A DNA stretch of 64,000 nucleotides, from assembly GCA_964035545.1 (NCBI GenBank), contig OZ037772.1, positions 4,139,538 to 4,203,537 on the forward strand, written 5' to 3'. Both the position numbers and the translations under genes were made by a program. This DNA comes from Bugula neritina (Eukaryota; Bryozoa; Gymnolaemata; Cheilostomatida; Bugulidae). Shown piece by piece: positions 14,818-47,475 of this stretch (its first letter is position 1; every line of letters begins with the position of its first letter). Below the pieces are notes generated by a model. The model saw only the letters and a program-made list of their open reading frames with translations, ran no database searches and was not told the origin of the DNA.

Positions 14818-15875
14818 ATGTCTTACTATTCTGGATCGAAGGGTGAGTTAATTATGTTTTTGGTACGATAACTAGACTGCATCAGTCAGCTTCAGCTACA
14901 CTAACTAGCAAGCTGGAGATTCGATAATGATAAACAGTGGTGGGAATACACGTCGACTTTGATTTTAAATAATCTGCCATAGCGAGTGTGTTCTCCATCA
15001 ACTATTCATTAGCCTGAATCTCACGAGTGTAACTGAACAGAGTACCGGTCAGGCTGTACACGCCGACGGTACCTCAGTGTATAATCTTTAACACTGCTAC
15101 TCTTTCAGATCACACTCGAGTGACCACCTCCCGGTCACGGGACCAGCCAACTTCTCTGCCTATGGAAGAGGAACCTGTAATGGAGAATGGCATACCCGTG
15201 GTGCTCTGTCGACGACACCGCTGGGTGTCACCCACGACGGAAAGGAGAATTGAGGAAGCCTGGGGACCCAGCGGACCCCACCGAACCTGCCAGGTCTGCT
15301 TTGAGGAGTGCCCGTCACACCGCTCCCTGCGTCTACATGTAGACGCCCATTTTCTACTCCACTTCTGTCCGTGCAGGTTCCACGACGTATGCCCGTATCC
15401 CGTGACAGTCCATAAGCTGAGCTGCTTCGCTGGAGAGAACCATACTGTCGATGAGGACAGTTTCCCCCAATACCTATATACCATCAAGCCAGTCATCAGG
15501 AAGGCTATCACCCTGGCCGCACTAGCGTCAGGGTTCCACGTACTGCTGCTATCCGCCCGCCATAAGTCCCCTATGGTTCAGGGCCCGTCTCCTACCTCCG
15601 TCAACCCTAGCAACACCCCCGAAGTAGAAAGAACAACAATACCCCCTCTAACAGAGACTACTACAACCCCGCCAAGACCTAGCCAGCTGGCTAATGTAGA
15701 AGAGCGGCTTGTAAGACTACAAGCCGAGTTCACACAACTTGCCCCTGACTTGCTGGATATGACGACAGGTCTATACCAGTTGAAGGACTCAGTGGGGCGA
15801 CTGAAGAGGCGGCTACGTGCCCGACAGGCTCGACACAGAGCACGCTCGCTACAAGAGTCGGAGTCCACCCAATGA
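14818..15875 (+). CDS. ORF3 of element A: two-exon zinc-finger/coiled-coil protein
   Basis: The predicted gene is join(14818..14842, 15109..15875), 263 residues. Exon 1 is 25 nt beginning with ATG, 24 nt after the pol stop. The donor is G|GTGAGT and the acceptor CTCTTTCAG|AT; the intron is 266 nt, phase 1, and the split codon is GAT. Exon 2 encodes a C2H2 finger (C-x2-C-x12-H-x3-H) followed at once by a second cluster beginning CPC (C-x-C, then His and Cys). After a Thr/Pro-rich linker comes a heptad-rich helix (LVRLQAEFTQL...) and a basic end. I see no signal peptide or membrane segment, so it is not env-like. Elements B and C keep the same intron position, phase and domain order. Function unknown; nucleic-acid binding plus oligomerisation is a guess. 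An unspliced reading would start at ATG 15162. Confidence 0.8.
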
Positions 15876-16139
15876 GTATGCCTGGGGTAGGCACCTTTCG
15901 TTGAGCTGTATTTCGTCTGGAAAGTGACGAGTGCTCCGACATTGGCCCGCGTGCTGGTAAGCACCCTCTCTCTTTATAGCTGATTAGATGTGTGTGATCG
16001 ATCACCCTGTTTACTTCTGTATATAAATGTTGTCGTGCTCAACTATTTCTTTTCTTCCTCTTTGTGGGTTTACTTATGTATGTTTTTCTTCTTGGATTAT
16101 TGTATAGTTTTTCATTATGTGTTTTTTTTATTGTGTTAT

Positions 16140-16173
16140 CAGAAAGTAGGGCTTTCTGCTGGGGGGGGGGCGG
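16140..16173 (+). other. Hairpin plus polypurine tract of element A
   Basis: CAGAAAG (16140-16146) and CTTTCTG (16152-16158) form a 7-bp perfect stem around a 5-nt loop. Ten G residues and CGG (16161-16173) follow and abut the 3' LTR. The same hairpin stands before the tract in elements B and C. Confidence 0.8.
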
Positions 16174-16526
16174 TGTAGTGAGTAGTGCAAAGTACAAATA
16201 CGGGAATCGCCCTCTCCCTACTCTTGGAATACTTAGCCCCTTATGTAGCAACCAATTAGCAGCTCCGGAAGATATGCTTCCGATTCACGTGACACTTCCC
16301 GGGTTATTAACATTTTATCACGTTGTTGTAAGCGGAGGCTTGAAGGAGAAACATGTATTAGTAGTTGACTGATGTTTAGGATAATTTGATGTGATGTTTA
16401 TTTTATGCTTTATTGTGGATAATAAATATAATTACTCGACAGCTACCCTAGTAATTACTAGCAGGATAACTAACTAACTATACGCAAGTAGATAACTCAC
16501 GCACAGTAATTGCACGAATTACTACA
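16174..16526 (+). repeat. 3' LTR of element A (353 bp)
   Basis: Direct repeat of 11162-11514. It is followed by the ATAT duplication and then by the last 17 bp of the split 5' LTR of element 1 (16531-16547). Confidence 0.93.
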
Positions 16527-16547
16527 ATATTCTGCATATCATCAACA
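16527..16547 (-). repeat. 5' LTR of element 1, outer piece
   Basis: After the duplicated ATAT, the 17 bp 16531-16547 complete the LTR and end in CAACA. The 5-bp duplication ATGGC follows at 16548-16552. Confidence 0.9.
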
Positions 16548-16552
16548 ATGGC

Positions 16553-17170
16553 TATCAGTAATAAGTACAGCATAATAGATTATTATTATAAATGTATTTA
16601 TACAAATAGTGACAGTAATACTAAAAGTAATATTTTTAGCTATAATTGGTATCCACCAGTTTGCACTACAATTATGAATTTTAAATTACATACAACTTCA
16701 ATTTAAAACTAAAAGTAAGAGTGAAACGCTTAATAGTTATTACTATAACTATGACTATTAAGATTAGTATAATATGGTAAAATGTGAGACTGAGTACCAG
16801 TATAAAACTGATATTTAACCTATTTGTAGATTCTAAACTTTTAAATTAGACCTAATAGTAGTAGCAGCAACCTTGCAGTAACTTCTACAGTTAATCCTAG
16901 TTCTATCATCTATCAGTATCACTATGATTATCATTATGATTATGATTATTACTATCAGTATCACCATCACCATGACTTCACGTCTAAAACTATGAGTATC
17001 AGTATGACTGACTGTGAGAGTATCACCACCACTATGAGTGGTGGTGATAGTGAGTATCACTATCACTACAATACTTAATTAGTTACTTATAGTTATACTT
17101 ATACTATGAGTTACACTACTATCACTATTAGTATCACTACGACTATCACTATCACTATCAGTATAACTAT
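16553..17170. repeat. AT-rich DNA grading into degenerate TATCAC/TATCAG simple repeats
   Basis: No gene is seen. From about 16900 the sequence is a degenerate array of ACTATCAGTATCAC-like units that resumes at 24675, so element B inserted inside this simple-sequence tract. Confidence 0.7.
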
Positions 17171-17475
17171 TGTTATAATTTTCAGATTTAGGGTTGATGT
17201 GCTATCCAGAGAGTCTATTTATTTACTATAAAACTGCACCAGGATAAGTCGAGTGAACGAGTATATTTTACACACAATTATACATTATAAAAACGATACA
17301 TTATTTCCAGACAAGTTACACATCTAATCTATTTCACACTCTAGCTTCGACTGAGTTAGCAGCGGGAAACTACAATTGCTGTTAACTATCAACTACGCTA
17401 ATTGGTTATCCATTGTTCCGGGTCAATTGCGCGACCCTACATGTTGTGCTGCTGGTAGTTCCACGAACCACCACA
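17171..17475 (-). repeat. 3' LTR of element B (305 bp)
   Basis: Ends TGTGGTGG...ATAACA on the minus strand. It matches 24370-24674 except at about three sites. Confidence 0.92.
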
Positions 17476-17506
17476 CCGCCCCCACCAGCAGAAAGCCATC
17501 TTTCTG
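17476..17506 (-). other. Hairpin plus polypurine tract of element B
   Basis: On the minus strand CAGAAAG and CTTTCTG (within 17489-17506) pair around a 4-nt loop, followed by CTGGTGGGGGCGG up to the LTR. The stem is identical to those of A and C, while the loop differs (ATGG instead of TAGGG). Confidence 0.78.
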
Positions 17507-17763
17507 ATATATATATAAAAAAAACATTCATTGGTAACCGCATACATCAGTGGACAAAATAATACATAATATACAGGAAGAGACATAATAATAGACAGAA
17601 TCATTATAACGATCCGTTGCATACAATTGGCCAGCTGTAGATAGACGAGGAATACTAGCTAGCTGTGGTGTTAGACAGGGGATAACCTGTTAAGCAGTCA
17701 AACATTTACATGACATCTTGGCTTCTCCCAAGAGGCGGAGTTGGAGTACTCCGGGTAGTCTAA

Positions 17764-18841
17764 CTAGAGTCCTTGTTGGGCACGCCGGTGCTTGGCTTGG
17801 CATGTACGCAGTTTCCTTTTCATACGGCATACGGATCCCTTTAGCTGGAAGAGTCCTGTTGTAGTGTTAAGTAGATCTGGTGCCAGCTGGGTGAACTCTT
17901 CTTGTAATCGTAGGAGGTGTTCTTCTACTGTGGCTAGGCGTACTGGGTCTGGGGACGGTGTCCGTCTGCGGCGCAAGGGTGGACTGGGGGACCTGGTTCG
18001 TCTCTTCGTCAGAGTAGGGGAGATCTCTCCTTCTTCTGGATATGTAGTTTCTTCGGGGGTGTATGTAATTTGAGGGCGGTCAGACACCAACGGAGATTGT
18101 TGGCGGGCGTTGTCTAACACACGTTGGAACCCCGAGGACAGAACGGCTAATAGCATGGCCTTCTTCACCAGAGGTCGTATAAGTGTGAGGAACTCCGGGT
18201 ATAGCTTAGCGTCGACCACGTAGTTTTCTCCAGGGAAACAGCCCGCCGCTCTGTGTCTGGTGACGGGGTAGGGATACACGTCATTGTACCCGCAGGGGCA
18301 GAATGTTAGTAGGAGATGAGCATTGACGTGTAAATTAAGGGAGCAATGAGAGGCGCAGTCTTCACCACAGATCTGGCATCTCGTCCGTCCTCTGGACCCC
18401 CAGGCTGTTTCTATTTCTTCTTCTGTTTGTGGAGACACCCACCGCCAACGGCGGCGTAGTGGCTCAGGCCGGTCACCACTAGCATACTCCTCTGGATACG
18501 GAGCGGGAAGTGTTCTATCCCGTACCCTGGTTGTAGCGGGTCGAGTGTAATCTGAAAAAGTTTCAACAGTGTTAATACAGTACACTGCTGTGTTGTCAGC
18601 TTGAACAGCTTGGCAACTCCTAATTCAGTTACCTCGTAGAGATTTATGGTAGTGAATAGTCAGATAGAACACGTATTGCAATGAGATTATAAAAATCTCT
18701 AAGTCAAACTGAGTTCTTACTACGGTATTTCACTAACCTATCTCCAGCTCGATTGACTCGGTGAGTCAGAGCTGAGCGATGCAATCTAGTTTCGTATTAA
18801 GATATAGTTAACTCACCCCACGATCTGTTGTCGTAAGACAT
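17764..18841 (-). CDS. ORF3 of element B: two-exon zinc-finger/coiled-coil protein
   Basis: The predicted gene is complement(join(17764..18551, 18817..18841)), 270 residues. Exon 1 is again 25 nt starting with ATG, 24 nt after the pol stop. The donor is G|GTGAGT, the acceptor CTTTTTCAG|AT, and the intron is 265 nt in phase 1. Exon 2 holds the C2H2 finger (CQICGEDCASHCSLNLHVNAH region, C-x2-C-x12-H-x3-H), the CPCG...H...C cluster, and a helical block after GENY. A linker rich in Arg-Ser-Pro follows, then a coiled coil (VEEHLLRLQEEFTQLAPDLL). The sequence is clearly homologous to ORF3 of A and more distantly to that of C. Unknown function; no membrane segment. Confidence 0.8.
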
Positions 18842-18865
18842 ACTGAATGTGTGAAATGGTTTGAA

Positions 18866-21800
18866 CTACTGCTTAGAAACACGTCTACTCCTGACTGCAT
18901 CAGCGTATGAAAAGATCGAGCAACGTGGTTGGGGTGCGTGATTAAGACTTTGTGCACCCGGCGGATGAATTTTGTTTCTATTTCCGCCGATGCAAAAGTT
19001 GATATTTCCGTGGTGTTGACAACTCCCACATTTGCTCGATTCTTTTCTCGTACGGTTTTCCCCTAGACTTTCATGCGTGCCGCTTTTAACGCAGTCACAT
19101 ACGAAGTCCTTCAAGTATGCGGGGGGTTGCCTCGTACGCTGTCCCCTTTCTAGGGGGGGTGACACGCTTGCCGGTTCGTTAGTAGGGGCCTCTAATGGCG
19201 TCTCTACTTCACCGTCAGCGGTCACCTCTTCTTGTTCTCCGGATGGAGCCCCTCCCTCCGTGGGGGTTTGCACTTCCGGAACCGGCTCGGTTTCTGGAAG
19301 TGATGGAATTAGACTTGGCGGTGGCGGACACGCTTCTGTTGACAAAAGCTGCCGCTCCTCTCTCACCAAGGTTTCTTCCCGCGGTATGACCACTTCGTAT
19401 TCAGGTCCATGCCGCCGTCGCCCGCGCGTTGTTGTCTGCCTCCTGGGCTCTAACAACGGGGGGGCTTCTCCCACTCCGTCGGGGCTAGCCCAATACGGTT
19501 TCAAGCGAGACTCGTTCTGGATAGACACCTGTCCTGAGCGCTCGATCTTGTACGTATGATTGGGCATAGCCTCGACGACCACGTAGGGCCCTACGAACTT
19601 AGGCTTCAGCTTATCAGCCTGTCCGCGGCGCCTACGGTAATTGACCATCCACACCTTATCTCCCATTTGATAGAGAGGTGGTTCATCGGAATCTTCGTGC
19701 CGCACCTTCCACTGCTGTTGGCGCAGTATATCGTGTGCGGCCTTCATCCGTTCCACTAGTTCACTGGCATACTCGTGGACTGAGTTATCTTGCTCTGGAA
19801 CGTGATAGGTGAGATGGTCAGGGACACGAGTCTCTCTCCCGAGCATCAAGAGGTTTGGGGTCTCACCAGTACTGGTGTGTGGGGTGCTACGGTATGCACG
19901 CATGACTTGCGGCAACACCGTATCCCATTCCTCTTGACCTCGTCCAAGGAGGAGACTCCGGAGTGCTTCACCTAGCATCCGGTTGTTGCGCTCCACCACC
20001 CCGTTACCTTGAGGGTGGTAGGGGGTGGTCCTGCTCTGATTTACTCCCCAGAGGTGGCAAAGGTCGCTCATCAGTTGAGACTGGAATTGAGCGCCTTGAT
20101 CAGAGTGTATCTGTTCGGGGAGCCCAAAATAACAGAATACATGTTGGTCTAGTGCCCTGGCCACTGTTGGGGCTGATGCATCTGGGATAGCCAGAGCATC
20201 CGCCCACCTAGTAAAGTGGTCGGTTAGTACTAGGATCCAATTATTGCCTCTGGGGGTCAGGGGCATGGGTCCGACCAGGTCTACAGCGACTACTTGCCAG
20301 GGCCTACCAGCGTATAGCCTCCGCCGTCCTGCTTCACCAGGGGGGCGGCTATGCTTACTGGCCTGGCAGATCTCACACTGTTTGACTCTGAGCCGGACAT
20401 CACGCTCCATTTGTGGCCAATACCACCGAAGTCGTAATTTGGACATCACTCGCTTGACCCCTGCGTGGGCCTGCTTGTGAGTATCCCAAATCAACTCACG
20501 GCGGATGGCTGTGGGGCAGACTACCCTCTTCTTTTCCGGGTGTCTGCCGCTGGCAGCTAGAGAGATGGTTAGCAACCCATCCTGCCCGATCCGCAGCGAG
20601 TCCCAACGCTGACAGTATAGCCGGAATTCGGCGCAACCCTGTCGTATGCGTTCCTCGCTGGGTCGTCGCCCTTCCCTTTTGGCCCGGTATATGTCTGCCA
20701 CGACTCCAGGCAGCTCTTCTTGGAGCTTTTTCAGCTCTCGAACATTACCGGCCAGTACAGGGTTGGCGCGGAGGTTTTGTACATCCTCCGGGGACTCATC
20801 AACTCTTTGCCTGAGTTGACCTTGATCCCAGTCAAACGGTGCTCCGTGGTGAGCCAGCATCTCCAACTCGCATCGCGGGGACCTCCATCCCTCCTCTCGA
20901 TGTTGAGACACTGTTTGCAACCTCCGTCAGGTCGGCGACTCAACCCATCTGCATTGCTGTGTCTCTTGCCCGGTTGATGTTCGATCCGGTATGAGAATTC
21001 AGCTAGGATTTCGAGCCACCGGGCGACCTGACTAGAGGGCTCTGCTCTCCTGCACAACCAGATCAGCGAGGCATGATCCGTACGCAGCCGGAACTTCCTG
21101 CCGTATAGGTATGGTCTGAAGTGCTTCACTGACTTGATTACTGCCAGCAGCTCCTTGCGGGTAGTGCAGTAATTTCGTTCAGCGGGTGAGAGAGACTTGC
21201 TGTAGTAGGCTACTACTACCTCTCGGCCTTCCTGCACTTGTGACAGCACAGCGCCAACATTTTGGTCACTGGCGTCCGTGTCTAGGATGTACTCCAGAGT
21301 GGGGTCTGGGTAGGCCAAGATGGGCGCCGTTAGTAGGCAGCCCTTGAGGCGGTCGAACGCTTCTTGTTCGACTGGAGTCCACTGCCATGTCACTCCCTTT
21401 GCGGTGAGCCGGTTTAACGGCTGGGCTATGCCCGCAAAGTCTGGTATGTATTGCCTGTAATACCCTACCAGCCCCAAGAAAGCCCGGAGTCCGGTCAAGT
21501 CTTGGGGGGTGACCCAGTCTTCTACTGCCCGTACCTTTTCGGGATCCGTTGCCACGCCGTTTCGACCGACAACGTGCCCCAGGTACTTGACCTCCGGCTG
21601 CAATAGAGCGCACTTGGAAGGTTTGAGCTTAAGACCGGCACCTCGGAGTCTCTCGAAAACCTCCTGCAGAGGACTGACATGTGTCTCGAAGTCTGGAGAG
21701 ATTACGATGACATCATCGAGGTAGACCAGCAGTGTCTTCCAATGGAGTCCGCTAAGGACTTGTTCCATCAGCCTCTGGAAGGTGGCTGGGGCGGAGGTTA

Positions 21801-23496: not shown

Positions 23497-24338
23497 AAAC
23501 TGACTGTTTCTCCTTGTGGTGGCGCCGATGGCCGCATGGGCTCAGGGGCGGTACTCACTGGGGTTTGTGGTGTCAGTGTTGCTATCAGCTTGGCTAGCAT
23601 GTCCGTCAATTGAGTGACTTTTGATGCCGTCGCCAACTGAGACACGGCAGCCGCGGCGGGAGTTTCCTCCCCTTGTCCTGCGGCCGTGTCCGCGCGGTCT
23701 ATCTCCACTTGACGGGAGCTCCCGCGACTTTTATGCATTTGATTAGCTAGGAGGTAAGCTTCCCCCTCAGTCAGAGCATCTTCAACGGTGGTGACTCCCC
23801 TAGCTAGAAACTGGTGGTGGAGACCCAGATCATCGACAGATGCTATGAAAGCGTCGAGGGTATACCTCTCGCGGTTGACTGGGGGCAAGTCGCTGTATGC
23901 GATCTGTGCCAGCTTCATGACCGCAGCGGCATGCTCCCGCAGCGGGGTGCGGGGATCACGCCGCAACCTCTGCAATCGGGCCCTGGCATCTGTAGCAGAG
24001 AGGCCAAAGCGGGCCCGCAGAGAAGCAAAGATATTATCAATGTCTACGCCCAGCCCATAGGGCTTGGCTTTGTCCATCAATGCCATTCTAAGCTTCAGCA
24101 AGGCCACCCTAGGGGGCCACTGGGCGACGTCCATTACGTCGCTAAACTCTTGGATAAATTGTTCCACCTCCTCTTCACCCGTGAAGGTGGGCGCCTTTAA
24201 CCGGTAACGGTCCTCAGCTAGTTCTCGCGGAACCCTTCGCTCTTCTACTACATGGTTAACAGGCATTGTCTCTACAGCATTGTCTCTACGCTCACCTTCT
24301 ATTGCCGGTGGTTGAGTTCCAGCATTCTCAGTCTCCAT
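23385..24338 (-). CDS. gag: Gag of element B
   Basis: An intact 317-residue Gag. The capsid-type region is strongly similar to that of element A (RYRLKAPTFTGEE, QWPPRVALLKLRMAL). One CCHC knuckle, CWECGNQGHFRRYC, lies near the C terminus. The ATG at 24338 follows the primer-binding site by about 12 nt. It ends just behind the frameshift hairpin. Confidence 0.88.
   Translation of the reverse strand: METENAGTQPPAIEGERRDNAVETMPVNHVVEERRVPRELAEDRYRLKAPTFTGEEEVEQFIQEFSDVMDVAQWPPRVALLKLRMALMDKAKPYGLGVDIDNIFASLRARFGLSATDARARLQRLRRDPRTPLREHAAAVMKLAQIAYSDLPPVNRERYTLDAFIASVDDLGLHHQFLARGVTTVEDALTEGEAYLLANQMHKSRGSSRQVEIDRADTAAGQGEETPAAAAVSQLATASKVTQLTDMLAKLIATLTPQTPVSTAPEPMRPSAPPQGETVSFCWECGNQGHFRRYCPYLNQGLNYRGPQMFPPSAGRR
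23392..23436 (-). promoter_or_regulatory. Putative -1 ribosomal frameshift signal of element B
   Basis: On the minus strand the heptamer GTTAAAC (23430-23436) is followed after 5 nt by a hairpin. Its 8-bp arms are CGGCCCGC (23417-23424) and GCGGGCCG (23392-23399), around a 17-nt loop. The gag stop lies just beyond, and pol continues in the -1 frame. Confidence 0.75.
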
Positions 24339-24350
24339 CTTGGATGCACA

Positions 24351-24368: not shown

Positions 24369-24369
24369 C

Positions 24370-24674
24370 TGTTATAATTTTCAGATTTAGGGTTGATGTG
24401 CTATCCAGAGAGTCTATTTATTTACTATAGAACTGCACCAGGATAAGTCGAGTGAACGAGTATATTTTACACACAATTATACATTATAAAAACGATACAT
24501 TATTTCCAGACAAGTTACACATCTAATCTATTTCACACTCTAGCTTCGACTGAGTTAGCAGCGGGAAACTACAATTGCTGCTAACTATCAACTACGCTAA
24601 TTGGTTATCCATTGTTCCGGGTCAATTGCGCGACCCTACATGTTGTGCTGCTGGTAGTTCCACAAACCACCACA
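24370..24674 (-). repeat. 5' LTR of element B (305 bp)
   Basis: Direct repeat of 17171-17475. It is followed by the CTAT duplication and then the simple-sequence tract. Confidence 0.92.
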
Positions 24675-29169: not shown

Positions 29170-29371
29170 GGAAAAATTGGCGACGAGGATGGGATTTCTC
29201 TTTTCAGTGGACAAAGTTACCAGTGGAGTTCTACATCTACTTCAGAGTTTAACAGATAGAACTACTTACAGCAGAGGAATCTCGGACTGTTCAGAACAAT
29301 ACCAGGCTAGGCAATATCTACACTCTAATCGCCTTGTGAGTAACACAAATTAATTTTCAAAAATTTTCATA

Positions 29372-32300
29372 ATGGCAGAAGTTGCGGAGTTAGTAGCCAT
29401 GCTTAAACAGACACAGGAAAACAATAGAAAACTAATGCAAATGCTAATGGAAGGGAGAAATGAACCTAAAGCATTACCGACAGTTTCTATACCTAATTTT
29501 CCGGCATTTGATTCGACATTAGAATTGTGGACGAACTACTGGGCTAGGTTTAACACTTTTGTAGCTGCACACGCTATTCCAGAAGACCGCAACCCAAAGA
29601 TCTTCCTAACCTCTCAGTCAGCTGCAACATATAAGATTCTAGGAAACTTATCAGCTCAGATGACACCACCAAAAGGCATCAATGAACTTACAATAGCAGA
29701 AATAACAGAATTCATGAAGGACCAGTTCGACCCAAAGAAGTTCATCATAAGAGAGCGATTCAAATTTTGGAGTGAAATGCGACGTAAACCAAGCGAGACT
29801 GTTCAGGAATTAGCTGCACGGATTCGTCAGGACGCCACAACTTGTGATTTTGCTTCTATCACCAATCCACTAGATGAAAATATGTGGACAAAATTCATTT
29901 GTTCTGTTAGCAATGAAGCAGTTCTAAAAGCGTTATTCAAAATTAAAGATGATGAATTGACCTTCACCAGAGCTGTGGAAATTGCAATTGAAACTGAAGA
30001 TGCAGCAAAGGTAGCCAAGGAAACTGCGCATGAAGTTAAGGCTACAGGTGTTAGCAAAGTTCAGACTGACAAAAGATCAACAAACAATGCTAGCAGCGTT
30101 TCTTCAACAAAGAAAGAAGATACTCAACAAAAAACCAGCTGTTACAGATGTGGAAAAATACATTCACCAAGTATTTGCAATTATAAAAATGCTCAATGCA
30201 ATTTTTGCAAAAAACTAGGTCACATAGAATCAGCATGCCGACTTAAGAAGAAATCAACATCAACATCACAACCTGTCAAAGTTATCACTTCTACCGTAAG
30301 AAGGATTGAATCTCTATCACAGTTACAACAGAAGTTACAGATAGAGAGTGTGGAATTCACTACGGAATTGGATACCGGAGCATGGGAAAATTTCATCACT
30401 GCCGAAATTTGGGAGAAACTTGATCGACCGAATTTGGAGCCAACAGAAGCACAGTACGAGTCAGCATCTAAACATCCTATTAATGTAATGGGACAATTCC
30501 AACGAGTTGCCAACATTCCTGATAAAGCCAGTGGACAGATGTTGAACTTCGTAGTCACAGAAATACCACAACTAAATCTTCTAGGACGTGACGCTATACA
30601 TAGGCTACAGATATCTATAGACGACAAGATGAAGATTCCATGTACATCATCGCCTACAAGTAATCCAGTGAACACAGTTTTCCAAGATCTTAAACCTGAC
30701 TACTCATTACAGAAAGCTTGCGAACAAGTTTGTCAAGAATTTCCAGATCTTTTCAAACCAGAACTGGGTTGTCTCAAAGATTTTGAGTTGGAGATTGAAT
30801 TCAAACCTGACTTGAAACCAGTATTCTGCAAAGCCAGACCAGTTCCATTCGCTATGCAAGACGATCTTGTCCAAGAATATGAAGCAGGAATAAGAAGAGG
30901 AGTCTGAAAACCTGTTCAGTTCAACAACTATGGCACACCAGTAGTACCAATCAGGAAAGCCGCACTCCCCGATCAACAGAAAAGAAAGCTCAGAGTGTGC
31001 GGAGATTACTCGGTGTCTATCAACAGCCAACTTGAAACTCACCGCCAACCAATGCCCTTACCAGGAGACTTGATGCAGAAGCTCAGAGGAGGATATGGAT
31101 TCACCAAAATAAACTTGGCGGATGCCTACAACCAGATTCTGTTAGCTCCAGAAAGTCAAAGAAGACTGGCTCTGAACACCCATCGAGGAGTACTTCTTCA
31201 GATGAGACTTCCTTTTGGCATTAGTTCGGCACCAGGGTACTTTCAAGAAATCATGGAGAAACTCACTAGCAACCTAGAAGGTGTGGCAGTGTATCTAGAT
31301 GATATCCTGGTCAGCGGATCAACAGCAGAGGAACACTTAAACAACCTCAGAAGACTTCTACAACGCCTAGATGAGAAAGGACTAAGATGTCGTAGAGAGA
31401 AGTGTGAATTTACAAAGCCAGCAATCCACTACCTAGGACATCTCCTCTCTAACCATGGCATAGCTAAAGGAAAGAAGGCAGACGCTGTTAAAACTATGCC
31501 GGTACCAACAGATGTATCATCACTCAAGTCATTTCTTAGATCGGTAGTATTCTACGGCAAATTCTTACCAAATTTATCTACAGTTACAGAGCCGCTACAC
31601 CATCTGACTAAAAAGAACGCTGTTTGGAAGTGGGGATCTGAAAAAGAGTCAAGCTTTCAGAAACTTAAAGAGATATTATGCTCGGACACAGTACTAGCTC
31701 ATTTTGACCCTACCTTGGAAGTCGGGATTTCCTGTGATGCCTCATCAGTGGGAATAGGAGCTGTTCTTTTTCATCGATACCCAGATAAATCAGAAAGACC
31801 AATCTTCAACGTTTCAAAGACACTATCTGGAACTCAGAAGAAATACGGACAGATACAGAAAGAGGCTCTAGCTATAGTGTTCGCACTAAAGAAGTTTCAT
31901 CAATACCTCTACGGCCGGCGGTTTATCTTGGTTACCGATCACCGACCATTATTGCCACTATTTGGACCTACAAAGGAGACACCAGCTTTAGCAGCCAACA
32001 GACTAGCAAGATGGGCACTGCAACTGAGTCAATACGATTATAGTATTGAGTATCGCACGACCAGCAAACACGGCAATGCAGATGCACTTAGTCGTCTGCC
32101 AGTTGGCCCAGACTTCAAGTTTGATGAGGAGGAAGATGGCGATGATATGGACACGATATGCACGATACGACTGATTTCTCAACAATTAAAGCCAACAGAT
32201 CCAAAAGTACTCCTAAAAGAAACCTTGAAAGACCCCGTTCTGTCTACAGTAATTTGCTATACAAGAGAAGGATGGCCTAAAACACTAGAAGAGACAAACA

Positions 32301-33541
32301 CAGAAGATGAGGACCAAGCTCATAGTGCAGCTTACAACATACAGTGTTTCAAGAAGGTGTCTGGCTCACTCTCTATCTTAGATGGATGCTTGCTGTACGG
32401 TTCAAGAGTTGTAATACCGCTTACCCTTCAGCCACAAGTTCTGCAGATTCTTCATCTAGGACACTTTGGCATGCAGCGGATGAAAAAACTCACACGTTCT
32501 GCTGTTTATTGGCCAAGAATAGACGCAGACATCATGGATGCTTGTAAATAGTGCAACTCTTGCACTGACCACCAGAAACAACCAGCCAAAGCTCCTCTCC
32601 ATCCTTGGATGATTCCAGAAAAGCCATGGAGTCGTATTCACATCGACCATGCAATCAACTTTATGGGAAGCAACTGGCTAGTAATTGTGGATGCATACTC
32701 AAAGTATCCCTGCATACATTCAACTACATCAACATCTTTGAAGAAAACTACAGAGCTTCTAGAACAAGACTTTGCACACTTTGGATATCCACACAGAATT
32801 GTATCCGACAATGCAAGCACATTCAAGTCTGAAGAGTTTCAAAGCTAGTGCCGGGATCGTGGAATAGTTCATCTATCTGGAGCCCGTTATCACCCTGCCA
32901 CAAATGGAGCAGCTGAAAGACTAGTGCAATCATTTAAACAGGCTCTAAGAAAATATAATTTACCACCAAATCTAGCTTTGACTGAATTCCTGATGCACTA
33001 TCGACGCACACCCTTGATAGGAGGATACTCGCCCAGTGAACTGCTGAATGGGAGACTGATTCGTTGCAAATTTGATGTTCTGCTACCATCACCAGCACAC
33101 CAAGCCCAAGGACGACAATCAAAAGAAGTGGAAAAGTCTACAGACCAGAAATCCACTGTATCCAAAGTTCACACCTATACAGTTGGAAGTCCTTGCTACG
33201 CATTCTATTGTGGACCCCGAAGAGACAGAGAACCACGATGGGTCCTTGCCATTGTCACAAAAGTATTGGGACCAAGAAGTATAAATGTCAAAGTCACACC
33301 AAGAGGACCAATATGGAGACGTCATATTGAACAACTATTACCACGCTACGGAGTTGAGGAAGATTCTGAACCAGCAGACGATGTGAAATCTGAAGTTCAA
33401 ATGGCTGATGTTTCAAATGACGATAGTACTGCTAACCAAACACCTCAACCATGGAGAAATCCCAGACTACCCACAGGCGGAGAGTATGGACCTGAAAATC
33501 TTAAATGGTCAAAGAGATTGGCAGCTCACCAAAATACATAG
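29372..33541 (+). pseudogene. gag-pol: Gag-Pol of element 4, one frame with three internal stops
   Basis: A single reading frame runs from ATG 29372 to 33541 without any frameshift. TGA (30905-30907), TAG (32549-32551) and TAG (32846-32848) interrupt it. In order it shows gag, two zinc knuckles (CYRCGKIHSPSIC and CNFCKKLGHIESAC) and a protease with LDTGA. The RT has YLDD, followed by RNase H (SCDASSVGIG), an integrase finger, and an integrase core (IDHAIN, SDNASTF, AAERL). The stops fall just before the RT core, in the integrase finger (ACK-stop-CNSC) and in the integrase core (FQS-stop-CRDRG). All three are one transition from a plausible Trp or Gln codon. It is a distinct lineage from elements A-C and has no third gene. 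Confidence 0.88.
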
Positions 33542-39600: not shown

Positions 39601-39911
39601 AACAGTTTACCAAATAGTCACTAGTCAGTATTCACTAGTCACTAGTTGCCAATCACCAGATACTAGTCCTCTACTATGTTGCAAGTCACTTGATAATCTG
39701 AACAATTACTGGCTTCTTCTTAAGCTGAGCGAGTTGTTGGCATGACTATTCCTTTTGCTGATTGTAGATGTATAAACTCAGTGGCAGTACAAGATGCATA
39801 CGGTAGGAAGAATAAGTCAGTCATTTTATATACAGCTGGTGATAAAGAAAACACAGCGACAGTCAGCAGGCTCCAATCTTCAGTGCTGCAGGTTGATTGC
39901 AAGGTATGTAA

Positions 39912-40025
39912 ATCTGACCTGTATAATATAAATCTGATCTATATAGTGTAATTTTGACCTATATAGTGTAAACCTGATCTATATAGTGTAAATCTGACTT
40001 ACATAGTGTAAATATGACCTGCATA
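39912..40025 (+). repeat. Short tandem repeat, about 23-bp units
   Basis: Five units of CTATATAGTGTAAATCTGA type in the last collagen intron. Confidence 0.7.
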
Positions 40026-40327
40026 TGCGCATGATTGCGATAGTTGCATCTTTTGTTCTATTAATTTACTGTGGAGCTTGCTTTTGAGGCTTGTAATAAA
40101 TGTTTACGAGTTCAACCCAAAAGCCACTTTGAGTGCTGTACGAGTTTAGAGTTTTGAGTTTGCCGTCTGCCATTTTGTAGTATGCCAAATCATCAGAAGC
40201 TCAGACAGTGATTGAGATTGACACCAAGACCGCCACCCACTTGCCTATTATTGACATTGCTCCTGGTGACATCGGGACCACCCACAAAGAGTTTGGGGTT
40301 CAGCTTGGAGAAGTCTGCTTTTCATAG

Positions 40328-41005
40328 ACTCATATCTAACAACAGTTTTATTTGTCTGATTTGTAAGACTGTCCCTGATTAGATAATTAGTGGCCAATCA
40401 GAGAATGCAATCAATGTTTGGTTGGCTGAGACCAGCGGTCTGATTTTTATATAACCTAATTTTTAAATGAAAGATTTGATTACTCTAAATGAATTTATCC
40501 GAGACTTCCAAGGCAGTGATGGTGATTTTTGCACATATAAATTTGAAGGAGTTTAGCTATAGGGTTTATGCTGTTTTTTAATTATTCCACCATAACCTGA
40601 GATTGTGAGTAGTAATTCTAGAATGAGATAGGGAGGGTGTTATGCCCCTCCCTATGATTTTATATATTTAGAAACTGTTGTTAATTTAGTAATTCTGTTG
40701 GTGCTACATTTTTGAATTTATTTAATCCAATCATTTCTCTAATATTGCAAAATATATTTTACCATACAGCACTACACAACTTATTTCTCAGCTTGTAAAT
40801 TTCATCATCAAAATTATTGCAGTTTTCAGATCTGATTATTTAACCTATTTATCCTGAAATTAGACATTGTTAGTTTAAAATGGAATTTTACATATATTTT
40901 AGTTACTTAGTTCCAACTGTGTTGACCATATCAACATTTTAAATTTTACTTTGGCTGCTATGAAGTATATAAGCAAATGGCATTAAGTTATTAATATATA
41001 ATAAG
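40328..41005. other. AT-rich DNA after the collagen stop
   Basis: Presumed 3' untranslated and intergenic sequence. No gene is recognised. Confidence 0.5.
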
Positions 41006-41336
41006 GTTTGCAAAGACTTAATATACCAAGCAACTGTGACAAGACATGACAATAACTCCAGCCAATCATACATAGGACTTTGTTCAACTACCTTCAAAGC
41101 CAGACTCAACAACCATAAAGCCTCTTTCCTACATGCAGATAAAGCCAACAGCACACAACTCAGCAGACAATACCGGGATTTAGAACAAAACACGAAATTC
41201 AGCCTAAAATGGATTATTTTAAAAAATTTGTAGATCATACTCAAACCTAATCAACAGATGTAACTCATGTAGCTATGAGAAATATGTAATTTTGAAACAA
41301 CCGGAGTTATCCACTCTCAACAAACGCAAAGAGTGA
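41006..41336 (+). pseudogene. Penelope-like retroelement fragment, GIY-YIG endonuclease end
   Basis: The frame from 41006 reads VCKDLIYQATVTRHD...SQSYIGLCSTTFKARLNNHKASF, then TQLSRQYRDL and FSLKWIILK. This is the IYQA...YIG...R..NH pattern of the GIY-YIG domain at the C terminus of Penelope-like elements. After a frame break near 41230 it continues as NRCNSCSYEKYVI...LSTLNKRKE and stops at 41334-41336. Only this 3' piece remains; no reverse transcriptase is visible upstream. Confidence 0.65.
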
Positions 41337-41529
41337 AGTGTGAGAATTCCACGCTAGTGACCTGCCACACACAGTGCGTGTGTTGCGAGTGCAAAATATT
41401 ATTAGCAAATGATGTTAGCGTTAAACTTTACTGCTCGCCTACAGACGTTTGTTTTTAAACAGCGTCACCGGGCAAAGTAATTTGGATATTCTAAAAGCGG
41501 AAATGCAAAATATATAAAACTGTTTTAAT

Positions 41530-41689
41530 TCAGCTCAGTATATTATGTTATACAGTATATTATGTCATACAGTATATTATGTTATACAGTATACTATGTT
41601 ATACAGTATATTATGTTATACAGTATACTATGTTATACAGAATATTATGTTATACAGTATACTATGTTATACAGTATATTATGTTATAT
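41530..41689 (+). repeat. TTATGTTATACAGTATA minisatellite
   Basis: About ten units of 15-16 bp. Element C inserted at its right end, duplicating ATAT. Confidence 0.8.
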
Positions 41690-41962
41690 TGTAGTGAGGA
41701 CGTAATACGCGCGTCCCCCAAACCCCTTCAGCCTATCCGAGTGCGTCACGTGATAACCCTCAGCTAGTAGTAGTTTGTCAGTAGAGAGAGCGTACTAACT
41801 AAGCGAAGATGTAATCTCTAATCTGTGTACGTGCTGTATCTTTTATATAATTAGTAGCGAATAAACTTTGGAAACTCTTACTTAAATACTTTATTGATGT
41901 GGATAAATAGACTATAATTACAAGCTAGGAACCCACGCATAGTAATTACACAAATTACTACA
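41690..41962 (+). repeat. 5' LTR of element C (273 bp)
   Basis: Partner of 47838-48110. The primer-binding site TGGTGGCAGCAGTGGGAT follows at 41964. Confidence 0.93.
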
Positions 41963-42023
41963 GTGGTGGCAGCAGTGGGATTTCTAGCTACTGTATAAGA
42001 ACAATGAGAAGTATTAGAACATC

Positions 42024-42845
42024 ATGGACGAGAGAGTAACTTCAATGGAAGGAGGTGAGCGAAACATTATTATAGGCCCTCTCGGAGCTGGAGAGGAGGT
42101 ATATAGGAACACATTAGAGGTTCCCGTGTTCACGGGCCTCGAGGATGTTGAACAGTTCGTTCAAGAGTTCCGTGAAGTTGCAGCCATTACAAGATGGCCG
42201 CCAAGAGTAACTCTTACGAAACTGCGGATGGCACTGACGGAAGAAGCCAAGCCGTACGGGTGGAAGCCTAGCGTAAACGGGATCATTGCTACACTACGGG
42301 CCCGTTTTGGCATGCCCGTTGCCGTCGCCAAGTCCAGGCTGCGAGGATTACTCCGCAGGACATGTACACCGCTTCCTGACCACGCCACTCTGGTGCAGAG
42401 ACTGGCACGGACCGCGTATAGCGATCTGCCAGAAACACACAGACGGCACTACACATTCGAAGCCTTTGTACAGTCTCTCAACTCTTTGGACTTCCACCAC
42501 CAGTTACAAGCCAAGGGAGTGACCACGATCGAGGCTGCAATCCAGGAGAACAAGGCCTACGCTGGAGCCGAGCAACTCTATAAGACGGAAGAGGCCACTC
42601 CCCAGACCTCTAGGGAACCAGACCATCCGATCCGCATAGCTGCCGCGACCATTCAACCCCCCATAGAGATGGAGATAAGCCGCTTGATGACTAGACTGGG
42701 ACAATTGGTGGCGACGATAACATACAACCACTCAAAGAAGAGTAAGAGGACGGCCGCAAAACCCCCCAGACCTATGATGCGACGCTGGGAAAGCGTCAAC
42801 CAGGGGCACCGCCACCCGAGCGGCTCAGTTGCTACAAGATTATAG
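42024..42845 (+). CDS. gag: Truncated Gag of element C
   Basis: 273 residues from ATG 42024. The capsid-type region matches A and B (VPVFTGLEDVEQFVQEF, RWPPRVTLTKLRMAL, LRARFG), but the chain diverges after about residue 240 and has no CCHC knuckle. It ends at TAG 42843-42845, inside the start of the pol sequence, which is in the +1 frame here. Normal -1 frameshifting could therefore not make Gag-Pol in this copy. Confidence 0.82.
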   Translation: MDERVTSMEGGERNIIIGPLGAGEEVYRNTLEVPVFTGLEDVEQFVQEFREVAAITRWPPRVTLTKLRMALTEEAKPYGWKPSVNGIIATLRARFGMPVAVAKSRLRGLLRRTCTPLPDHATLVQRLARTAYSDLPETHRRHYTFEAFVQSLNSLDFHHQLQAKGVTTIEAAIQENKAYAGAEQLYKTEEATPQTSREPDHPIRIAAATIQPPIEMEISRLMTRLGQLVATITYNHSKKSKRTAAKPPRPMMRRWESVNQGHRHPSGSVATRL

Positions 42846-45681
42846 CGACGTGTTCAGCAGTGGGGACCATGACGTCGGCCTGACCACGGCCGTCCGTCAT
42901 GAGATACCGCTAGCTGCAGGGACTACCCCTATTCGGCAGCCCACTAGGAGGCTGGGACCCGAGAAGGAAAAGGAGGTCAGCCAACAAGTCCGGGATCTTT
43001 TGGACCGCGGCCTCATCGAGCCAGCACATAGTGCGTGGAGTTCACCGGTCGTTCTGGTCCGAAAGAAAGACGGTAGTTGGCGGTTCTGTGTGGATTATCG
43101 CAAGCTCAATAGCGTGACCATACAGGACGCCTACCCCTTACCCAGGATCGACGAATCTCTGGACGCCTTAGCCGGCAGCAAGTACTTCAGTACGCTAGAC
43201 TTGTTGAGCGGCTATTGGCAGGTCCCCCTCAGCCCAGACGCCCAGGAGAAGGCGGCGTTCATCACGCGGGACGGCTTATGGAAGTGGAAGGTCCTCCCCT
43301 TCGGACTGACTTCTGCCCCCGCCACGTTCCAGCGGCTCATGGAACAGGTCCTCAGTGGACTCTACTGGAAGACACTGCTAGTATACCTCGACGACGTCAT
43401 CGTGATCTCCCCAGACTTTCAGACACACGTCAGCCGTCTGCGGGAGGTCTTCGATCGACTCCGAGGCGCCAATCTGAAGCTCAAACCCTCCAAGTGCGCT
43501 CTCTTGCAGCCAGAGGTGAAGTACCTGGGGCACGTCGTCGGCCGTCACGGTGTGGTGACGGATCCTGAAAAGGTACGAGCTATAGAAGATTGGGTAGCCC
43601 CCCAGGATTTGACTGGGCTACGGGCTTTCCTGGGGCTGGTAGGGTATTACAGGCAATACATACCAGACTTTGCGGGGGTAGCGCAGCCGTTAAACCGGCT
43701 CACCGCAAAGGGGGTGACCTGGCAGTGGACTCCCGTCGAACAGAGAGCGTTCGACTGCCTCAAGGGCCGCCTGCTGGAGGCCCCTATCCTGGCCTATCCA
43801 GACCCTGCCCTGGAGTACATCCTCGATACTGACGCCAGTGACCAAAATGTCGGCGCTGTGCTGTCCCAGGTGCAGGAGGGCCGCGAAGTAGTCGTGGCCT
43901 ACTACAGTAAGTCTCTCTCGCCCACTGAACGAAATTACCTCACTACCCGAAAGGAATTACTGGCAGTAATCAAGTCAGTGAAGCATTTCAGACCTTATCT
44001 ATACGGCAGGAAGTTCCGCTTGCGGACCGACCACGCCACCTTGATTTGGTTATGTAAGAGAGCAGAACCGTCCAGCCAAGTCGCCCGATGGCTCGAGGTC
44101 CTGGCCGAGTTCTCTTACCGGATCGAGCACCGACCCGGTAAGAAACACGGCAATGCTGATGGACTGAGCCGGCGACCGGACGAGAGGTGTAAACAGTGCC
44201 TCAACATCGAGAAGAGGGACGGAGGTCCTCCAAAATCCGAGTTGAGAGCACTGAACCACTCTGAAACGGAGTATGACTGGGACCAGGGTCAACTCCTACA
44301 GAAGGCCGCTACGCCCCCGGAGGCTATCCAACGCCTCCGTGCCAATCCTGTCTTGGCTGATAACGTTAGGGAGCTACGAAGACTCCAGGAGGACCTCCCT
44401 GGAGTGGTAGCCGACGTATATCGTGCCAAAAAGGAGGGGCGACGACCCAGTAAAGAACAACTGCGACAGGGATGCACCGAGTTACGGTCGTACTGTCAAC
44501 GTTGGGACTCCCTGCGGATCGGGCCAGATGGTCTGCTGACCATCACAGTGGCTGCTCACAACAACCAGTACGGCAGGAAAAGAGTGATCTGCCCAGCCGC
44601 CATACGCCGGGAGTTAGTATGGGACACCCACAAACAGGCCCACGCCGGGGTGAGCAGGGTGCTCTCCAAGCTACAACTCCGGTGGTACTGGCCCGGCATG
44701 GAGCGTGAGGTGCGGCGTAGAGTCAAACAATGCGAAATCTGCCAGGCCAGCAAGCATGGCCGTCTCCCTGGCGAAGCGGGACGGCGTAGGCTATATGCTG
44801 GGAGGCCGTGGCAGGTGGTAGCTATCGACCTAGTCGGACCCATGCCCGTCACCCCCAGAGGAAACAGTTGGATCCTAGTATTAACCGACCACTTTACACG
44901 GTGGGCGGACGCCCTGGCTATTCCAGATGCGTCCGCCCCCACGGTGGCCAGGGTGCTGGACCAAAATGTATTCTGCTATCTTGGACTACCTGAGCAAATA
45001 CATTCGGACCAGGGGGCTCAATTCCAGTCCCAACTGTTGAGCGACCTCTGCCGCCTCTGGGGAGTAAACCAAAGCAGGACCACCCCGTACCATCCTCAGG
45101 GCAACGGGGTGGTGGAACGCAACAACCCCATGTTGGGCGATGCACTGCACAGTCTGCTCCTCGGCCGGGGTCAGGAGGAGTGGGATACGGTACTGCCGCA
45201 AGTCATGCGGGCCTACCGTAGTACACCACACACCAGTACGGGGGAAACCCCTTACCTCCTGATGCCTGGTCGAGAGACGCGAGTGCCTGACCACCTCACA
45301 TACCACATCCCAGAGCAGGACTATACCATCCACGAGTATGCCAGTAAATTGATAGAGGACCTGAGGGCCGCACACGAAATACTTCGGGCGAAGCAGTGGC
45401 AGGTACGGCGAGAGGACTCTCAGGAACCACCTCTCTATCAAACTGGGGACTGGGTGTGGATGGTCAACTACCGTAGGCGTCGAGGACAAGCGGCTAAGCT
45501 CCAGCCTAAGTTTGTGGGACCCTACGTAGTAGTTGAGGCTATGCCCAATCATACGTACAAGTTGGAGCGATCTGGACAGGTCTCTGTCCAGAACGAAGCC
45601 CGCTTGAAACCGTATTGGGCTAGCTCAGGAGCAGCAGGAGCAGCCCCCCCCCGTTGTTGGAGCCCAGGAGGCAGACAGTAA
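42829..45681 (+). CDS. pol: Pol of element C: RT, RNase H and integrase; protease missing
   Basis: The frame is open from about 42776 and has no clear ATG at its start (42829 is a TTG). It begins just before reverse transcriptase (LLQDYSDVFSSG). It shows FCVDYRKLN, the YLDD site in VYLDDVIV, and an RNase H (DTDASDQN, TRKELLA, RTDHA). The integrase has an HHCC finger and D/D/E (IDLVGP, SDQGAQF, VVERNN), followed by a PYVVVEAMPNHTYK barrel-like region. At a C10 run (about 45644-45653) the frame shifts. The Pro-rich region continues in another frame and shifts again at a C9 run near 45855. The conserved tail is then read at 45860-46321. Both breaks sit in homopolymers, so slippage or sequencing error is possible. 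Confidence 0.85.
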   Translation: MLQDYSDVFSSGDHDVGLTTAVRHEIPLAAGTTPIRQPTRRLGPEKEKEVSQQVRDLLDRGLIEPAHSAWSSPVVLVRKKDGSWRFCVDYRKLNSVTIQDAYPLPRIDESLDALAGSKYFSTLDLLSGYWQVPLSPDAQEKAAFITRDGLWKWKVLPFGLTSAPATFQRLMEQVLSGLYWKTLLVYLDDVIVISPDFQTHVSRLREVFDRLRGANLKLKPSKCALLQPEVKYLGHVVGRHGVVTDPEKVRAIEDWVAPQDLTGLRAFLGLVGYYRQYIPDFAGVAQPLNRLTAKGVTWQWTPVEQRAFDCLKGRLLEAPILAYPDPALEYILDTDASDQNVGAVLSQVQEGREVVVAYYSKSLSPTERNYLTTRKELLAVIKSVKHFRPYLYGRKFRLRTDHATLIWLCKRAEPSSQVARWLEVLAEFSYRIEHRPGKKHGNADGLSRRPDERCKQCLNIEKRDGGPPKSELRALNHSETEYDWDQGQLLQKAATPPEAIQRLRANPVLADNVRELRRLQEDLPGVVADVYRAKKEGRRPSKEQLRQGCTELRSYCQRWDSLRIGPDGLLTITVAAHNNQYGRKRVICPAAIRRELVWDTHKQAHAGVSRVLSKLQLRWYWPGMEREVRRRVKQCEICQASKHGRLPGEAGRRRLYAGRPWQVVAIDLVGPMPVTPRGNSWILVLTDHFTRWADALAIPDASAPTVARVLDQNVFCYLGLPEQIHSDQGAQFQSQLLSDLCRLWGVNQSRTTPYHPQGNGVVERNNPMLGDALHSLLLGRGQEEWDTVLPQVMRAYRSTPHTSTGETPYLLMPGRETRVPDHLTYHIPEQDYTIHEYASKLIEDLRAAHEILRAKQWQVRREDSQEPPLYQTGDWVWMVNYRRRRGQAAKLQPKFVGPYVVVEAMPNHTYKLERSGQVSVQNEARLKPYWASSGAAGAAPPRCWSPGGRQ

Positions 45682-45859
45682 CGCGCGGGCGGCAACGGCA
45701 CGGACCAGAATACGAAGTGGTTGTGCCGCGGGGAGAGGACTTGGTGAGGCAGGAGACGCCACTCCCACCAACGGAAGTGCGCCTACCGCCCCCAGTACCA
45801 AGTCTACCCCCACCACTTCCGGTTCCGCATCCGCGTCCGGAAGTGCAAAACCCCCCCCC

Positions 45860-46321
45860 GTGGGAGGGGCTCCATCTGGAGACAACAGCGGAGAGGGGAA
45901 CACCACCACCAACGGCGGGCCAGAAACACCACAGGTGGAGCAAAATAGCCCACCAGTGAGTACGCCGCCCCAACCAACAGCTACAACTCCCTCTCCAGCT
46001 GATACGTCACCTCCCCTGGAACGGGGACAGCGTACTAGACAACCCCCAGCATACCTTAAAGACTTCATATGTGACCGTGTTACAAACGGCAGTTATGAAA
46101 GTCTAGCTGGGCACCGTACGGAAGGACTGGCAACAAAGCGTGGGAGTTGTGAACACCACGGAAATCTCAACTTTTGCGAAGGCGGAGTAGTAAACAAAAC
46201 TACTACGCCCGGGGCAAATAGTTCCAGCCGTGCGCAACAACCACGCTGCCCAGTCTTTTCGTACGCTGACGTTGTCAAGGGAAGACGCATTCAAACTCAA
46301 TCCACGGACATCCAAGCTTGA
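45860..46321 (+). CDS. C-terminal Pol tail of element C with conserved Cys/His module
   Basis: This 153-codon stretch aligns with the end of Pol in A and B. It reads ERGQRTRQPPAYLKDFICD, then YESL, GSCEHHGNLNFC, and QPRCPVFSYADVVKGRR. In B the same block is joined to integrase without a break. The Cys and His positions and the FSY-D-V-RR ending are shared by all three elements, although the residues between vary. I do not recognise the domain. Confidence 0.75.
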   Translation: MGGAPSGDNSGEGNTTTNGGPETPQVEQNSPPVSTPPQPTATTPSPADTSPPLERGQRTRQPPAYLKDFICDRVTNGSYESLAGHRTEGLATKRGSCEHHGNLNFCEGGVVNKTTTPGANSSSRAQQPRCPVFSYADVVKGRRIQTQSTDIQA

Positions 46322-46330
46322 ACGCTGAGT

Positions 46331-47475
46331 ATGATTACAAATACCGGGTTCTCAGGTAAGCTTGCTCTGAGCTAACATTTCCACTCATGGAAACCAGTCT
46401 ACCATCAGTCAGTTCTGATTTAATCGCCTTGATTGAATCACAACTACTGGGGACTGAGTCCTACGTGAAAGGCGACGAGAACATAAAGATGGCCGACGAT
46501 CTACTAGATCTGGAGCTTGACACTATGTCTCTCTGTCAGTCTACACGACACGACTCAGTCCCTCGAGTGCTATCTGAAAAGATGTATGACTCCCAGACTA
46601 GTAACAGTCGGTTGTCATCAGAATTATGGTGTAAAGATCACATTCGATCTAACAGTAATTCTGCTCTTTTAGATACCGCTCTCTCTCCTCTCTCTGGTGA
46701 CATGCCGTCACTAGAAATGGCTTGGAACGAGGAACCCGTTCCCACTACTCTTCCGGAGGCACTCTTACAGCAGTCATGCTGGGTTACACCAGATACAGAA
46801 ACACTGATACGAGAGCACAAGGGAGACGACCAATGCACCACCTGCCGTTTATGCCAGCTTCACTTCACTACTCCACGAAGACTTCGAGTTCATATTCCCC
46901 AACATTATTTCACCACCTTTTGTCCCTGTGGACAGTATAGTTACCACAGGGACTACATCTTCCGTCACCAGCGAACTATGGGATGCCATGTTGGACACCT
47001 TTTCGGAGTCGACGAACCCTCCTTTCCACAATTCCTTAATCTCATCCGACCATTCATATCAGACCCAGCTCGCTATGAACAGCTGCGTCAGGAATTCCCC
47101 GCACCCAGGACCATCACACAGGGACCCTGCCCTAAACCACCCGGATATAGGAAACCACACGTACCCCGTCCCTCACCCCCCGCACGCACAGTGCCCCGCC
47201 CCGACTCTATACCAAGAGTCGTGTTACGACGCATCGATTTACCACAGCGATGGCGTCCCTCTCCCCCTGTCTCCCCAAGGCCTTCTCGTAAACGGCGTTG
47301 GCCATCTTCATCCCCCAACCGACACTCTGCCCCTGCCCGGAATCTAGGCGAGGCAGAAGAGCGGATACGAGAATTAGAGAAAGAGGTGCAAAGACTGACA
47401 CCGAGAATCTCCGCCGCCGCATCAGAACTCCGGGCCCTCTCTGCCTCTGTAGCCCGAATGAAAGGAAGTGCTTGA
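46331..47475 (+). CDS. ORF3 of element C: two-exon zinc-finger/coiled-coil protein
   Basis: The predicted gene is join(46331..46355, 46673..47475), 275 residues. Exon 1 is exactly 25 nt from ATG, nine bases after the pol stop. The donor is CAG|GTAAGC and the acceptor CTCTTTTAG|AT; the intron is 317 nt, phase 1, split codon GAT as in A and B. Exon 2 has WVTPDTE, the C2H2 finger (C-x2-C-x12-H-x3-H), CPCG with a following His and Cys, and a PSFPQFLNLIRP block. An Arg/Pro/Ser-rich linker and a coiled coil (EERIRELEKEVQRL) complete it. The intron is also open in this copy: an unspliced frame from ATG 46387 gives 362 codons. Unknown function; no membrane segment. Confidence 0.78.

Follow-up and report, generated by a model that had tools for sequence, protein, structure and literature searches.

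A spliced third gene behind pol in Ty3/gypsy elements of Bugula neritina and its possible role as an accessory protein

Three Ty3/gypsy (Metaviridae) elements, here called A, B and C, lie in a 64,000-nucleotide stretch of the bryozoan Bugula neritina genome (assembly GCA_964035545.1, contig OZ037772.1, positions 4,139,538 to 4,203,537; hereafter the window), and each carries a third gene, ORF3, which begins behind pol with an ATG exon of 25 nt. Splicing of this exon is practically certain in families A and B, where eight genomic copies carry the predicted exon-exon junction; in C splicing is predicted. We propose, at a probability of about 0.42, that ORF3 may be an accessory protein of this Ty3/gypsy lineage, comparable to CERV of the Caenorhabditis elegans element Cer1 and to retroviral Rev, which would act on the element's own unspliced RNA. 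The gene comprises the following parts (position in the window, strand):

14818..14842, +, 25-nt ATG exon of A; donor GTGAGT at 14843; in 30/30 copies; junction copies L083-L086
14843..15108, +, intron of A, 266 nt, few inherited variants
15109..15875, +, ORF3 exon 2 of A (zinc-finger-like and coiled-coil protein)
18817..18841, -, 25-nt ATG exon of B; donor GTGAGT; junction copies L057, L060, L081, L082
18552..18816, -, intron of B, 265 nt, few inherited variants
17764..18551, -, ORF3 exon 2 of B
46331..46355, +, 25-nt ATG exon of C; donor GTAAGC; in 36/36 readable copies; no junction copy
46356..46672, +, predicted intron of C, 317 nt, also open in frame with exon 2
46673..47475, +, ORF3 exon 2 of C
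46387..47475, +, alternative unspliced ORF3 of C, 362 aa, with its start inside the intron

Splicing of the 25-nt exon

An earlier note on this DNA had described the gene from the letters of the window, and its exon coordinates, intron lengths, donors, acceptors, phase and residue counts are right to the base. The acceptors (TTTCAG in A and B, TTTTAG in C) are each followed by AT, all three introns are in phase 1, and the spliced frames encode 263 (A), 270 (B) and 275 (C) residues. The note had regarded this agreement as unlikely to arise by chance. A chance intron is indeed excluded for A and B, but the three elements are homologous, so the agreement in exon length and phase represents conservation rather than three independent coincidences.

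We searched the 215.8-Mb assembly (295 contigs) for family copies by their match to exon 2, scoring the best 40 in each family from 164 (A), 185 (B) and 103 (C) first-look candidates; the copies examined are the best exon 2 matches and not a random sample. Thirty copies of A, 30 of B and 38 of C were retrieved, of which 36 in C were readable (L090 and L092 were not). The recurrence of the 25-nt exon in other family copies, which the earlier note had proposed as a check, was found in all three families. All 30 copies of A have the exon and a GT donor (GTGTTA in one copy), 29 have the AG acceptor and 27 an intact spliced frame. In B, 27 copies bear the intron, two are intronless (L057, L060) and one is rearranged (L055); donor and acceptor are present in 27/27 of the intron-bearing copies, and the spliced frame is intact in 23. 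In C, donor and acceptor are present in 36/36 readable copies, with an intact frame in 25. The rearranged copy of B has an inverted piece of pol in place of exon 1 and the first ~50 bases of the intron.

The whole genome was then searched with 27-nt patterns of the exon-exon junction. Four places were found for B (all without mismatch), four for A (one without mismatch, three with one) and none for C, and the reversed patterns used as controls gave none for any of the three. In all eight junction copies the alignment to the element runs to the end of exon 1 and resumes at exon 2, with an overlap of one base because G is the final base of exon 1 as well as of the intron. Directly upstream of the junction, the B copies retain 1.5-2.0 kb of pol-side sequence. 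The A copies are internally deleted and retain 0.33 kb up to the next internal gap and more beyond. A junction with attached pol-side sequence implies that an RNA without the intron but with the upstream part was copied and integrated, and the eight copies look like integrated cDNAs of RNA that had lost the ORF3 intron. For A and B they rule out that an unspliced frame happens to resemble one with an intron, an explanation which is very improbable overall and could hold in part for C. For A and B combined, exon 1 followed by the donor was located 265 times in the genome (up to two mismatches), against the eight junction places. Among the copies compared, L057, L060 and L081 are each closest to an intron-bearing copy (L051; narrowly for L081), as is the old copy L082, whereas L083/L086 and L084/L085 form pairs. 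This suggests at least four groups of intron loss, perhaps six, and the pairs may result from an intronless element that was copied again. Integrated spliced copies in a genome can thus reveal the introns of retroelements without RNA data.

The claim of a spliced third gene in all three elements therefore stands for A and B, but not in the same way for C, which has no junction copy and whose predicted intron is open and perhaps coding. Its 105 codons are open in frame with exon 2 in 34/36 readable copies, with an ATG at 46387. Many of the 74 C-type database matches keep the intron-internal start and the frame, and alignments with the ten most similar in length span 99% of the unspliced query, with identities of 57-71%; these relatives are gene-caller proteins, chosen for openness, which biases the conservation of the frame. 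Within the B. neritina genome the coding signal is weak: 18 of all intron variants are synonymous against 16.1 expected (p 0.34), and of the variants found in at least two copies (shared variants) 11/19 against 6.5 (p 0.028). In the C model the intron-encoded N-terminus mostly has a predicted local distance difference test score (pLDDT) below 50, with one N-terminal helix. In 53/53 pattern-readable C-type relatives (of 74) the residue before the Asp/Glu at the acceptor is L, S, V or I, all NYA codons. Possibly C has both a spliced and a retained-intron form.

Selection on ORF3 and its intron

That ORF3 is a gene in its own right, as the earlier note had it, is confirmed by protein selection on exon 2 in A, B and C. 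The ratio of nonsynonymous to synonymous polymorphism (pN/pS) is 0.164 in A (n=30), 0.119 in B (n=25) and 0.152 in C (n=19), leaving out copies with length changes in exon 2 (two in B, one in C) and three odd B copies. Shared variants are synonymous in 67/95 cases in A (30.8 expected; 30 copies), 38/43 in B (14.4 expected; 28 copies) and 67/90 in C (27.8 expected; 27 copies).

The introns of A and B show few inherited changes. Their diversity (0.012 and 0.011, respectively) lies below that of nearly all surrounding 100-nt windows. Shared variants occupy 5/265 intron sites in A and 5/265 in B, or 0.019 per site in both, compared with 39/144 (0.271) and 19/148 (0.128) fourfold sites of exon 2 and 30/247 (0.121) and 38/245 (0.155) sites of the 3' untranslated region (3'UTR). 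The contrast is smaller among singletons, which number 0.098 (A) and 0.087 (B) per site in the intron, 0.188 and 0.149 at fourfold sites of exon 2, and 0.142 and 0.094 in the 3'UTR. The shared-to-singleton ratio of the intron differs from that of pooled neutral-like sites in A (fourfold sites of pol and exon 2, 3'UTR; p = 0.00036) and in B (pooled without pol; p = 0.00048). Two B copies, L034 and L050, have an odd pol; without both, shared variants number 5/265 in the B intron and 42/934 in pol. The scarcity of inherited changes takes in exon 1 as well as each fifth of the intron. Exon 1 and intron together fold better than shuffled sequences (z -2.7, -2.9 and -4.8 in A, B and C). A hairpin noted by eye at a like position in the three introns (14887-14915; 18745-18774 on the minus strand; about 46406-46449), where the letters differ yet pair, hints at pairing changes among A, B and C.

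The protein has the following parts in A:

15288..15350, +, finger 1 motif C-x2-C-x12-H-x3-H, read from the sequence
15366..15425, +, finger 2-like motif C-x1-C-x12-H-x3-C, read from the sequence
15684..15869, +, C-terminal long helix (likely coiled coil) with an Arg-rich end, from the model

Both motifs (CX2CX12HX3H and CXCX12HX3-5C, strict pattern) are present in 55/120 A/B-type and 45/74 C-type relatives, many of which are fragments. Their spacing is C2H2/C2HC-like and not C4, and the protein also has basic stretches. In Pfam, zf-C2H2_4 reaches 13.1 bits in C, below its cut-off of 27, and no zinc-finger family is listed for A or B. The A-type and C-type proteins align by profile (E 2.6e-20). 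The A model has a mean pLDDT of 76.6 and a helix at residues 192-253; the C model averages 68.3, with a core mostly above 90. The view that the product is not env was upheld: the highest hydropathy mean over 19 residues is 1.56, which indicates no clear membrane segment by hydropathy as distinct from a signal-peptide or membrane predictor, and no env family is matched in Pfam at E up to 1. We therefore reject env as the identity of ORF3.

The gag-start donor and the layout of the elements

The 25-nt exon, described earlier as the first exon, is joined to exon 2 in A and B but is not the sole candidate, as a donor in the same phase lies 43, 43 and 31 nt into gag in A, B and C:

11550..11592, +, gag-start exon of A, 43 nt, phase 1; donor GTGAGA at 11593; fusion in database relative P0014
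24296..24338, -, gag-start exon of B, 43 nt, phase 1; donor GTGAGC, first intron base 24295; putative use
42024..42054, +, gag-start exon of C, 31 nt, phase 1; donor GTGAGC at 42055; putative use

The database protein P0014 has a gag-like N-terminus, MAEEGTELPIPRNE, followed by ORF3 from the Asp at the acceptor, and corresponds to gag residues 1-14 plus ORF3 exon 2. A gag relative, P0239, has the identical first 14 residues and continues with GEK. Together they indicate that in a relative, as an integrated copy or a transcript, the gag-start donor was joined to the ORF3 acceptor, and such a fusion is probably used in this lineage. The A/B gag-start donor pattern occurs at 474 places in the genome (up to two mismatches; reversed control 19). 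A gag donor lies within 8 kb on the same strand for 25/28 listed A exons (contigs C1-C3), at 3.13-3.24 kb in 22 of the 25 and at 1.1, 2.1 and 7.6 kb in the others. Among the 12 B pairs examined on C1, 11 are 5.45-5.47 kb apart and one 4.86 kb.

Gag-pol lies between two long terminal repeats (LTRs) in each element, as found by LTR comparison and reading:

11162..11514, +, 5' LTR of A (3' LTR 16174-16526)
24370..24674, -, 5' LTR of B (3' LTR 17171-17475)
41690..41962, +, 5' LTR of C (3' LTR 47838-48110)

In B, the Pfam domains of pol follow the order protease, reverse transcriptase (RT), RNase H, integrase domains, and the top PDB match of the C RT is Ty3 Gag-Pol (E 5.7e-125). The LTR pair, the pol order and the RT nearest to Ty3 place the elements in Ty3/gypsy. 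No protease match was found in C (Pfam), and B pol had no match to viral contigs. In all three elements a small inverted repeat (CAGAAAG ... CTTTCTG) immediately precedes the G-rich tract at the 3' LTR (16140-16173; 17476-17512 on the minus strand; about 47800-47837), and 17-bp tandem repeats at 41536-41690 adjoin the C 5' LTR. Two more gypsy-type elements are recognized in the window by Pfam (1811-5821, minus strand; 29354-33541, plus strand).

Family A provides a natural experiment. Its pol has no Pfam match to RT (RVT_1) or to the integrase core (rve), and no protein constraint is seen in the final 314 codons of pol (21 of 64 shared variants synonymous, 20.2 expected, p 0.45), whereas the same codons in B are constrained (25/42 against 13.4 in 25 copies; 34/78 against 23.6, p 0.014, in all 27). 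With ORF3 under strong selection, family A looks non-autonomous. This suggests that family A retains ORF3 in cis while depending on an outside source of RT, and that the gene serves the element's own RNA while the enzymes can be borrowed.

Proposed role and comparison with known systems

As we picture it, ORF3 would be made from spliced RNA with a single 3' acceptor behind pol and two donors of the same phase, the first in the 25-nt exon, joined in A and B, the second near the gag start, joined in the database relative and putative in the window. The protein, with its two finger-like motifs, predicted coiled coil and basic stretches, would bind the element's own unspliced RNA, probably via the conserved intron that unspliced RNA alone retains, and would help that RNA to avoid being spliced and to exit the nucleus, so that it can be translated and packaged. 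We hold a role in RNA export to be somewhat less than an even chance, and the intron as the target of the protein to be doubtful. Equally tentative is an independently evolved counterpart of Rev and its response element (RRE), in which the intron would be the cis response element and the zinc-finger protein would act in cis on intron-bearing RNA. As RT can be borrowed and RNA export cannot, non-autonomous elements would, under a Rev/RRE-like scheme, keep the protein and intron as a pair while pol decays.

Several observations weigh against this proposal. C2H2 fingers often bind DNA. The intronless copies, some of them paired and perhaps derived one from another, imply that a cDNA copy can arise without the intron. 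As for intron diversity, the 100-nt segment immediately ahead of exon 1 in B is as low as the intron itself; exon 2 singletons also show a synonymous excess, so singletons are not a clean neutral yardstick; and fourfold sites of A pol (0.095) are less diverse than A exon 2, a difference in depth through which recombination may add to the low diversity of the intron. The excess of A-B identity in the intron is only moderate (74%, compared with 67% in exon 2, 69% in the 3'UTR and 62-65% in shuffles), and the intron hairpin is weak, with local z scores against shuffles of -0.8 (A), -1.3 (B) and -3.8 (C), clear in C only. The gag-to-ORF3 fusion is seen in one of the 194 ORF3 relatives compared (P0014). 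Genome-wide the corresponding junction was not found: the A/B pattern has one match at three mismatches, as does its reversed control, and the C pattern has none.

A competing and rather unlikely possibility is that ORF3 is a DNA-binding regulator of transcription or of the integration site, acting through the LTR or chromatin in a role like that of Tat or HBZ, with splicing merely the means of its expression. The classical C2H2 spacing of finger 1, the similarity to a SALL-family finger (E 0.027, the best of weak PDB profile matches) and a long helix suited to dimers agree with such a function, which nevertheless leaves the few inherited intron changes unexplained; moreover, elements could share an LTR-acting protein in trans, whereas A retains an ORF3 of its own beside an unconstrained pol tail. 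We consider it improbable that ORF3 acts in packaging or assembly as a second RNA-binding protein of the nucleocapsid kind, with the intron as packaging signal. The finger motifs, basic stretches, intron conservation and the excess of exon-plus-donor over junction places are in its favour, but RNA that had been spliced nevertheless gave rise to eight integrated copies, which makes the intron inessential for packaging, and a CCHC knuckle is already matched, at the borderline, in the gag of A (20.7 bits against a cut-off of 20.8). Still less credible is that intron conservation reflects splicing control alone, through donor, acceptor, enhancers and silencers, with ORF3 serving some unrelated role such as countering silencing. 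This view would agree with the low number of inherited changes in exon 1 and in every fifth of the intron, and the NYA codons of the C-type relatives would fit a kept YAG; it leaves the role of ORF3 open, and the constraint reaches beyond the intron ends.

Among known systems, gypsy env is expressed by splicing. ORF3 resembles it in lying behind pol and being spliced, and differs in having neither a clear membrane segment nor an env family. Retroviral Rev and Rex are accessory proteins made from spliced RNA that act on a structured region of unspliced RNA. ORF3 would share this role with them; Rev, unlike ORF3 with its finger-like motifs, is not known to have a zinc finger. HIV Rev is described as such an accessory protein in an account of Cer1 (PMC10309623). 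In the LTR elements of bdelloid rotifers pol is followed by an additional ORF3, which is reported to be expressed via splicing (PMC5408684). Its types are env, esterase, exonuclease and coiled-coil or membrane proteins, and the word 'zinc' does not occur in the main text of that paper (PMC5408684). The bryozoan ORF3 is therefore similar in position and spliced expression and different in its zinc-finger-like type. A literature search, judged on titles and abstract openings, yielded no comparable zinc-finger ORF3 apart from the Cer1 papers.

Cer1, a Ty3/gypsy element of C. elegans, encodes CERV through a spliced mRNA in which exons in the gag frame are joined to one at the 3' end (PMC10309623). 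CERV (517 aa, five exons) contains H, M and G domains and what may be a C4 finger; the Cys-rich region is a possible zinc finger and is accompanied by a potential leucine zipper (PMC10309623; PMC3315495). The protein is needed for export of the unspliced Cer1 genomic RNA, and its Cys loop is essential (PMC10309623; PMC3315495). CERV and ORF3 may have in common the layout of a gag start joined to a 3' open reading frame (seen in the database relative P0014), a possible Cys-rich zinc finger and a potential leucine zipper, and both elements have to keep unspliced RNA as well. ORF3, in contrast, is ~263-275 aa when spliced, has C2H2/C2HC-like motifs, uses one short first exon at a time and possesses an extra ATG exon behind pol. 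Export is shown for CERV and proposed for ORF3, which may work like CERV; we do not call it a CERV homologue. Cer1 is one LTR retrotransposon shown to export its own RNA with its own spliced accessory protein. The three families described here, one of them without RT, keep such a gene together with a conserved intron and have many relatives in public sequence; they offer a second system for asking whether the Rev strategy arose repeatedly.

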